Below, piece by piece: positions 34,873 to 59,515 of a stretch of 64,000 bases of DNA. Each line of letters opens with the position of its first letter. Position 1 is the first letter of the stretch. The DNA is from Candidatus Gastranaerophilales bacterium. Lineage in GTDB: Bacteria; Cyanobacteriota; Vampirovibrionia; Gastranaerophilales; Gastranaerophilaceae. Position numbers and translations under genes: made by a program. The DNA is taken from positions 1-64,000 of the forward strand of contig CALURI010000006.1 in the NCBI GenBank assembly GCA_944323135.1, given 5' to 3'. The notes below the pieces were generated by a model. It searched no databases, was not told where the DNA came from, and saw nothing but the letters and a program-made list of their open reading frames with translations.

Positions 34873-34911
34873 TTAAATCGCCCCCCCCCCGACTTTTCTA
34901 AATCTTTTCAT
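34873..34911 (-). repeat. G10 homopolymer tract in prepilin leader
   Basis: On the coding (minus) strand the start ATG at 34911, with a strong ribosome binding site, is followed by MKRFRKV and then ten G (complement of C at 34881-34890). With ten G the frame ends at a TAA (34873-34875) after 12 codons. With 11 or 8 G it continues with the peptide DLKLFPQVLGSCKKQITYAG and reaches the prepilin at 34816. Confidence 0.85.
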
Positions 34912-46566: not shown

Positions 46567-47373
46567 TTGAAAATATTTAAAGGCATAAATACTGCTTTTA
46601 CACTTGCAGAAGTTCTTATAACCATTGGGATTATAGGAGTTGTTGCAGCTATGACTATGCCTTCATTGATAAATGAAACCAGAAACAAGCAGCACGTTGT
46701 TGCTTTTAAAAAACTATATTCCAATTTTTCAAATGCAATAAACATGTTCAAAGCAGATGAAGGGTGTGAAGGTATTGACGTTGCCTCTTGCATAGAAGGT
46801 ATGGGATACGGAGATAACAACTGTGAAGCATTTGCCGAAGTAGCAAAAAAAATGAAATATGTAGCAATGGCTGACGGCGGACCATCAACCGGAAGCTGGG
46901 TTCCTGAGAAAAGTTACAACTATTACGGGGATGAAATTTCTAACGAATACGGAATGATAAACAAAACAGGTATTGGGTGTTTTTATTCACTCCCTGATGG
47001 CATGGTTTTAAATGTAGATGTTGACCCGAATGCATTCAAAGTATTTGTTGATACAAATGGGAAAAAAGGTCCTAACAGAATGGGAAAAGATGTACACTCA
47101 TTTACTGTCGGCTGCGGAGATATGTCTGAAAATTTAACCAGAATATGTATAGACACTCAAAAAGATATATTCCCGTTTGTTAGCGGGACCTTCCCAACTG
47201 ATGTAAAAAAAGGCTTATGCACTTTAGAATCTTACCTTCAAGGAGGTTGTAAAGATGCTAATATGTTCCCGAATGAAGGGGACGGAGCTTCTCCGTCTAT
47301 GTATATTCTTACTATGGATAAACTCCCTGATTATAGAGAAATCGCAAGCAAAGTTTCGGGATTTAAACCTTAA
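46567..47373 (+). CDS. Prepilin-like protein
   Basis: A 268-residue protein with the prepilin signal INTAFTLAEVLITIGIIGVV (cleavage before F, Glu at +5) and a secreted C-terminal domain with many Cys residues (DEGCEGIDVASCIEG; FTVGCGDM; GLCTLESYLQGGC). FVDTNGKKGPNRMGKDVHSF is a segment shared with the other prepilins of this window. The TTG at 46567 is used because the GGGGGA site is close upstream. A nearby ATG at 46551 leads into another frame via five G. No tract of contingency length is present. Confidence 0.85.
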   Translation: MKIFKGINTAFTLAEVLITIGIIGVVAAMTMPSLINETRNKQHVVAFKKLYSNFSNAINMFKADEGCEGIDVASCIEGMGYGDNNCEAFAEVAKKMKYVAMADGGPSTGSWVPEKSYNYYGDEISNEYGMINKTGIGCFYSLPDGMVLNVDVDPNAFKVFVDTNGKKGPNRMGKDVHSFTVGCGDMSENLTRICIDTQKDIFPFVSGTFPTDVKKGLCTLESYLQGGCKDANMFPNEGDGASPSMYILTMDKLPDYREIASKVSGFKP

Positions 47374-58698: not shown

Positions 58699-58784
58699 AA
58701 AAACAATTAACAACCATATATTGAAATTTTTAATATAATAATATATAATATACATATATAATAAAATAAAGGAGGCTGGAAATT

Positions 58785-59515
58785 ATGAATTTAAAAGCGT
58801 TAAGGGTCGCCCCCCCCCCGCAAAGGTCGCTTGGGACAAAGGGTTTAATGGGTTTACATTAGCAGAAGTTTTAATAACTATTGGAATAATTGGTGTCGTT
58901 GCAGCTATTACTATGCCTGCTTTAATTGCTAACCACAAAAAAACGGAAGTTGAAACTAAACTCAAAAAAATTTATTCCGTTATGAATCAAGCTATCAACA
59001 TGTCAGTTTCAGAATACGGAGATGTTGAAAGTTGGGCAGCAGATTGTGGCTCTTCAAGTAATACAACTTGCAACACTGATGAAGCAATTGAATGGTTTAA
59101 TACGTATATTGGGAAACATCTTCAAATAACTTCTATTGAAGAAAAGGAAAACGGAAAAGGATTTTATGCATATTTAAATGACGGCAGCATACTGAGTGTA
59201 ACAAATTACATTTATGATATGACATATATCATAAATAAAAAAAACATTCCTAAAGCTGGAGAAACAAGTAAAATTGGAAAATACTTATTTGCATTCAGAT
59301 TTAATCCCACTCTGGCAACAGGTCAAAATGAAGCCGATAATAAATACACCCTTAAAGCGACATTTGAACCATATACTTGGAGCTGGGACGGTACTCAAGA
59401 AAATTTATATGAACATCCAATTTACGGCTGTAAAGATGGGAATGGCGGATTTTGTACAAAATTAATACAAAACAACGGCTGGAAAATACCAAAAAACTAT
59501 CCTATTAATCTTTAG
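58785..59515 (+). CDS. Prepilin-like protein with C10 tract, out of frame as assembled
   Basis: ATG at 58785 follows AAAGGAGGCTGGAAATT. It encodes MNLKALRVAP and then runs into ten C (58810-58819). With ten C the frame stops at a TAG near the prepilin signal. The prepilin itself (NGFTLAEVLITIGIIGVVA, with cleavage site and Glu) follows in another frame that has no start of its own. With 11 or 8 C the two join into a protein of about 240 residues. The C-terminal domain has NMSVSEYGDVESWAADCGSS and YGCKDGNGGFCTKL, like other prepilins here. Confidence 0.8.
58810..58819 (+). repeat. C10 homopolymer tract in prepilin gene
   Basis: Ten consecutive C, in an otherwise AT-rich region, lie 25 bases after a well-supported start codon. 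The flanks AAGGGTCG and AAAGGTCGC form a short direct repeat. Slipped-strand change by one base would switch the downstream prepilin on or off. Confidence 0.9.

Follow-up and report, generated by a model that had tools for sequence, protein, structure and literature searches.

Conserved ten-base C/G tracts leave type IV prepilin-like genes one base out of frame in Candidatus Gastranaerophilales: a possible default-OFF contingency repertoire

Results

The prepilin genes of the window

The window, that is, the whole stretch of 64,000 nucleotides analysed here, forms the beginning of contig C6 of a Candidatus Gastranaerophilales genome of 1.95 Mb in 34 contigs (G000, the window genome). Within these 64 kb there are no C/G runs of 7 or more besides those at 34881-34890 and 58810-58819, both of which lie in prepilin-like genes. 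The features of the two genes, read from the sequence unless other evidence is named, were the following:

58768..58775, plus strand: ribosome binding site AAAGGAGG of the prepilin gene
58785..58809, plus strand: start codon and leader codons ahead of the tract (MNLKALRV and G); leader conserved in four species
58800..58821, minus strand: DNA module as read on the G strand, GC-G10-CGACCCTTAA, which fits the core YC-G10-CRNNNY with G-C ahead of the run; from the flank analysis
58810..58819, plus strand: C10 tract (G10 on the minus strand), prepilin frame reached at 11 or 8; exact C10 also in the orthologues L264, L274 and L282
58820..59515, plus strand: prepilin body (N_methyl PF07963, DUF6613), joined in frame to the ATG only when n = 2 mod 3; from domain matches and a dN/dS of 0.10-0.15
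58860..58862, plus strand: TAG closing the n=10 frame after 25 codons
34881..34890, minus strand: G10 tract of the other window prepilin, of the same chromosomal polarity, needing 11
34909..34911, minus strand: start codon of that prepilin, with the ribosome binding site AAAGGAG upstream

An earlier note on this DNA had described an ATG at 58785 with a strong ribosome binding site and ten C behind it, and had claimed that the prepilin frame is reached only with 11 or 8 C and has no start of its own; both descriptions held. At n=10 translation from the ATG meets the TAG at 58860, whereas with 11 (or 8) C the frame continues as MNLKALRVAPPPAKVAWDKGFNGFTLAEVLIT... (MNLKALRVAPPPAKVAWDKGFNGFTLAEVLITIGIIGVVAAI...) up to the stop at 59513-59515, and in this prepilin frame ATG, GTG and TTG are absent between the tract and FTLAE. 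The tract is of the hypermutable type and its length decides the reading frame, as in a contingency locus. The predicted product has the type IV prepilin-like F-T-L-A-E cleavage/methylation motif followed by a hydrophobic helix, and the body matched PF07963 (E 8e-6), TIGR02532 (prepilin domain, above cut-off) and DUF6613.

Both window tracts read C-G10-CGA on one strand, in line with the G10-CGA previously noticed. The minus-strand prepilin with its ATG at 34911 has, unlike the 58785 gene, an internal in-frame ATG (..AGD-MKRHYKNKIGFTLAEV), so that a downstream start is possible in principle. A further prepilin motif at 46597 (plus strand; ..INTA-FTLAEVLITIGIIGVVAAM), one of four in the sampled genome with no C/G tract upstream, is possibly a constitutive pilin.

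Orthologues of the 58785 gene and selection on the prepilin body

Alignment of the 58785 prepilin with homologues, which the earlier note had proposed as a check, identified orthologues in three other species (G019, G003 and G026) in the same interval, flanked by the genes for the S41 peptidase and cytidine deaminase (L262-L291), each with C10 and each one base short. The dN/dS ratio 3' of the tract among the four species was 0.10-0.15 where estimable (dS from 0.8 to more than 2), indicating that the protein encoded behind the C10 is made and used at least at times. Approximately 35 nt around the tract contain a single differing position among the four orthologues, which indicates constraint on the nucleotide sequence of the leader. 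The run and its frame offset are thus conserved ahead of an ORF under selection, the combination characteristic of programmed transcriptional slippage or -1 ribosomal frameshifting.

These results bear on the possibility that the prepilins are frameshifted pseudogenes, either silent donors or genes in decay. They are out of frame in the assembly, as such genes would be; the dN/dS values behind the tract, however, contradict decay, and the intact ORFs in dozens of genes, the good ribosome binding sites and the coherent frame all speak against it, making this explanation barely credible.

Many other species have an empty site at this locus; the presence of the prepilin in four species and its absence at the same spot in many indicate that these genes are gained or lost singly, together with their promoter and leader. 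The tract as the end of a mobile cassette was rejected, since at this locus it lies inside the gene and not at a boundary.

Abundance and frame of the tracts in the window genome

The window genome carries 59 C/G runs of at least 8: 50 of exactly 10, five of 9 and four of 11, compared with approximately 0.03 runs of at least 10 expected from composition in the whole genome. About nine-tenths of the tract sites sit in prepilins, nearly all at the gene start, with prepilins called by motif search and remnants and divergent copies possibly misfiled as non-prepilin. In the window and the fetched regions, 54 prepilins had a tract within 330 nt upstream and four did not, a ratio biased upward because the sample was centred on tracts. 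When the start codon is assigned by its ribosome binding site, n = 2 mod 3 (11) is what 44 of the 47 n=10 prepilins of this genome require; in G026, of which a part was sampled, all 43 of 43 do. ATG and tract are separated by 15 to 85, with every residue mod 3 represented, from which we infer that the need for 11 arose anew on several occasions rather than being inherited from a single accident. Almost half of the tract prepilins (23 of 53) have no ATG, GTG or TTG between the tract and FTLAE, so that for those 23 the upstream start and a change of frame are required. There are also near-identical paralogues differing in tract length only (10 versus 9 in L055; 11 versus 10 in L050).

Two other features of the leaders were observed. 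A second FTLAE-like segment is present in the leaders of L282 (G026), L063:12436 and L084 (e.g. FTLAEGATHVAPQHD...AFTLAEVLITLG), as if the leader had been duplicated or spliced in. By eye, many leaders (L035, L037, L050, L051 and others) have TGYTATAAT, translated CYN.D..HH, between the tract and the pilin body, resembling an extended -10 promoter.

Tract length across the genus and its sister genera

Summed over the per-genome tables of 33 genomes (species) of the genus, there are 2081 runs of at least 8: 69 of 8 (obtained by difference), 148 of 9, 1621 of 10, 150 of 11 and 93 of at least 12, 42 of these last from G001 alone. In G026, 169 of approximately 179 runs are of 10, six are of 11 and none is of 9. 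The n=10 tract recurs in MAGs of about 25 other species, of which those traceable to a record are short-read assemblies.

The excess of 10 over 9 and 11 in 33 species makes simple assembly error very unlikely. In favour of an artefact reporting 11 as 10, G-tracts are hard for Illumina sequencing (PMC9187656). Nevertheless, the length of 10 is common to many separate MAGs whose contigs bear SPAdes-like or MEGAHIT-like names; longer and varied lengths do come out of the same kind of search in G001 and the sister genera; and non-prepilin ORFs are open at exactly 10. We consequently give an artefact next to no credence.

Spread of length among loci and species is not seen in most of the genus but it is in G001 and in the sister genera G033 and G034. 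The leader of G001 is different (CATC-G12..16-ATT), variable in length and with G on the coding strand in prepilin-type leaders. In G033 and G034 the G-tracts are of 9-14, seven of them in recognisable prepilins with lengths of 10-14. This distribution suggests that variable tracts are ancestral in the family and the fixed length of 10 derived. Further G-tracts of G001 (L242-L261) lie outside prepilins, one of them beside a methyltransferase-like sequence.

Other species are tract-poor, with zero to four runs of at least 8 (G012, G021, G023 and G027). In G021 (1.8 Mb genome), 131 prepilin matches go with four such runs and the leaders inspected are of the ordinary short kind, so that tracts are not required for a large prepilin repertoire.

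Deviant prepilin tracts often still need 11, as do 9 of the 17 of length 11 and 11 of the 14 of length 9. A compensated n+1 design, in which a tract of 9 calls for 10 and one of 11 for 12, was considered as proof of programmed slippage and rejected, since it is not the rule among these deviants.

A DNA motif oriented towards a dif-like site

The genes read either G10 or C10, yet the flanks of the G strand agree: C before the run and, after it, C, a purine and a pyrimidine at +6, often with AGCTYC further along. A codon-level origin of these flanks was rejected, because non-prepilins, and genes of either direction, have the same G-strand core. Twelve contigs of the window genome have at least two tracts, and each of the twelve has all of them on a single strand (chance approximately 6e-14). 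In G026, 45 of the 45 tracts listed on contig 1 share their orientation over approximately 360 kb, and contig 3 switches once. Seven genomes have one copy each of a dif-like sequence (TATAATRTATATTATGTAAG), assigned by sequence similarity; in G026, G025 and G003 this copy falls within the interval where the orientation switches. The G strand is oriented towards the dif-like site on both arms, near-perfectly in three genomes. Since the strand pointing at dif on both arms is the leading strand, the G strand is the leading strand, with which the GC skew weakly agrees.

The earlier note had argued for a contingency mechanism shared by the two window genes. Sharing is strongly supported and was found on a larger scale, in approximately 53 prepilins of the sampled part of the window genome, and in many more in some relatives, with the same off-by-one frame. 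Classical contingency fits only partly: the length is nearly fixed at 10, the sign of the deficit is constant and the orientation follows the replichore, none of which is predicted by a random-walk tract.

The same core and orientation were found at approximately 12 sampled non-prepilin sites of G026, where nine of ten clear ORFs are open at 10. Such sites, the fixed length and flanks, and the near-perfect orientation towards dif in three genomes are what would be expected if the module were primarily a chromosome-polarity signal (a KOPS-like or Chi-like G-rich motif for a translocase such as FtsK) and prepilin leaders merely its main carriers; E. coli KOPS are also oriented from origin to ter (PMC2680272). 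KOPS, however, are of 8 bp and scattered, while the 10-G run is concentrated in prepilin leaders (some nine-tenths of the window-genome sites) and nearly missing from some species of the genus, so that the motif is not present genome-wide in all related species independently of gene family. The shared need for 11 is also left unexplained, and we regard a primary polarity signal as improbable.

Three minor observations concern the motif. Two G10 motifs (L176:11843 and 13009, G026) lie in one large, repetitive-looking EF-hand-like ORF, where n=11 at the second is needed to extend the protein from approximately 504 to 743 aa. A G-strand hairpin (CGGGG...GCYYY), which needs G:T wobbles, scored above shuffles in both leader classes and may follow merely from the conserved AGCTYC. 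A phage link was judged unrelated: there were two pattern matches in viral contigs, in one ORF type of GC-rich background and open at 10.

Discussion

A proposed default-OFF prepilin repertoire held at ten bases

Our preferred reading, offered tentatively and as close to an even call, is a contingency repertoire that is OFF by default at a set-point length of 10 and ON at 11, and in which polarity helps to hold the set-point. The 58785 gene would be one of approximately 50 type IV prepilin-like genes genome-wide whose leader module has the core YC-G10-CRNNNY. Replication would hold each tract at 10, leaving the start codon and the pilin body one base out of register with an early translation stop; replication slippage in living cells, adding one base (11), would then bring the gene in frame to its presumed expressed state. 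Few prepilins would be expressed at any time, and different cells would expose different ones. Polarity relative to the fork would be part of set-point upkeep, with G10 in fork-codirectional genes and C10 in head-on genes, and both polarity and flanks might act via slippage or mutation bias. Our literature search found no paper linking Gastranaerophilales with phase variation or describing such tracts.

Several results favour a switch, and each of its elements has a published counterpart among the systems compared below: nearly all prepilins with n=10 need 11 at ATG-tract distances of every residue mod 3; near-identical paralogues differ by one base of tract; 23 of 53 prepilins lack an alternative start; polarity changes at a dif-like site; lengths 9 and 11 look like rare excursions from 10, with the deviants mostly still needing 11; the body is under purifying selection in four species though all read C10; the non-prepilin motif ORFs of G026 are mostly open at 10, that is, default ON; and G033, G034 and G001 have variable G-tracts, several in prepilins, like ordinary phase variation. 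Against it, tract length varies far less than in known phase-variable sets, as G026 illustrates, and frame switching alone does not account for the flanks and polarity at non-prepilin sites. The strongest objection is that, with 9 and 11 equally frequent, genes needing 9 or 12 should be as common as those needing 11, yet they are rare.

This constant sign fits better with correction at the RNA level, in which the DNA would stay at 10 while RNA polymerase adds a base on G10/C10 or the ribosome slips -1, giving a steady low yield of each prepilin, and polarity would only stabilise the tract. If a one-base gain is programmed, tracts should be uniformly 10 and uniformly need 11, as is seen in many species, and bodies should be under strong purifying selection even while out of frame, as they are in all four orthologues. 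Programmed transcriptional slippage (PMC1088944, PMC5009743) likewise combines a homopolymer and an ORF split by one base with conserved frames. Its known cases in bacteria, however, are mainly on A/T runs (PMC1088944), and slippage on G and C runs of 10 is not established. A single design would moreover have to work with both G10 and C10 in the mRNA, which behave differently for ribosomes and polymerases. RNA-level correction explains worse than the switch the in-frame state at 10 of ordinary tract-bearing genes, the variable lengths of close relatives and the replichore polarity, which it does not predict. We therefore consider it unlikely, though the most serious competitor of the set-point switch.

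A more specific form of the switch, which we consider unlikely, is a dedicated length control coupled to replication, with a trans-acting factor that would recognise YC-G10-CRNNNY on the fork-exposed G strand, keep the tract at 10 and allow +1, so that 50-170 prepilins would be mostly silent with few ON per cell. Such set-point contingency would be a kind of phase variation that, to our knowledge, has not been described.

Relation to known systems

The tracts resemble the polyG/polyC genes of Campylobacter jejuni and Neisseria in being mononucleotide G/C tracts in the coding sequence of surface genes. In those contingency genes tract lengths and ON lengths vary between loci, whereas in the present set a length of exactly 10 accounts for approximately 80% of the runs of at least 8, and almost every prepilin needs 11. 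PMC4085013, citing other work, gives for C. jejuni a bias towards insertions at G8-9 and towards deletions at G10-11. Bifidobacterium breve UCC2003 is likewise a gut commensal, and its sortase-dependent pili are turned ON and OFF by replication slippage of G-tracts (PMC9187656): there too pilus genes carry an intragenic G-tract near the 5' end, the assembly shows the OFF length and one base sets the frame. B. breve has two loci of sortase pili with a productive event that is mostly a one-base omission (PMC9187656), in contrast to the approximately 50-170 type IV prepilins described here, whose tracts share a single set length and a flank motif, follow the replichore in polarity and may present G or C on the coding strand. 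GnT mutational hotspots show leading-strand-specific growth of G tracts (PMC12344412), a replication-strand dependence that could help to create the polarity and to remove T after the run; they concern short G tracts in Proteobacteria and Bacillota and set no length of 10 (PMC12344412).

If the tracts switch, this uncultured gut lineage would have one of the largest slippage-controlled pilin repertoires known to us; should they not switch, RNA-level correction on G/C runs would decode dozens of conserved genes per genome one base off. Either outcome is unexpected. The exact length, the fixed deficit sign and the orientation towards dif would tie surface variation to replication-fork polarity. 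In automatic annotation the starts of many such prepilins are probably missed, or the genes called truncated.
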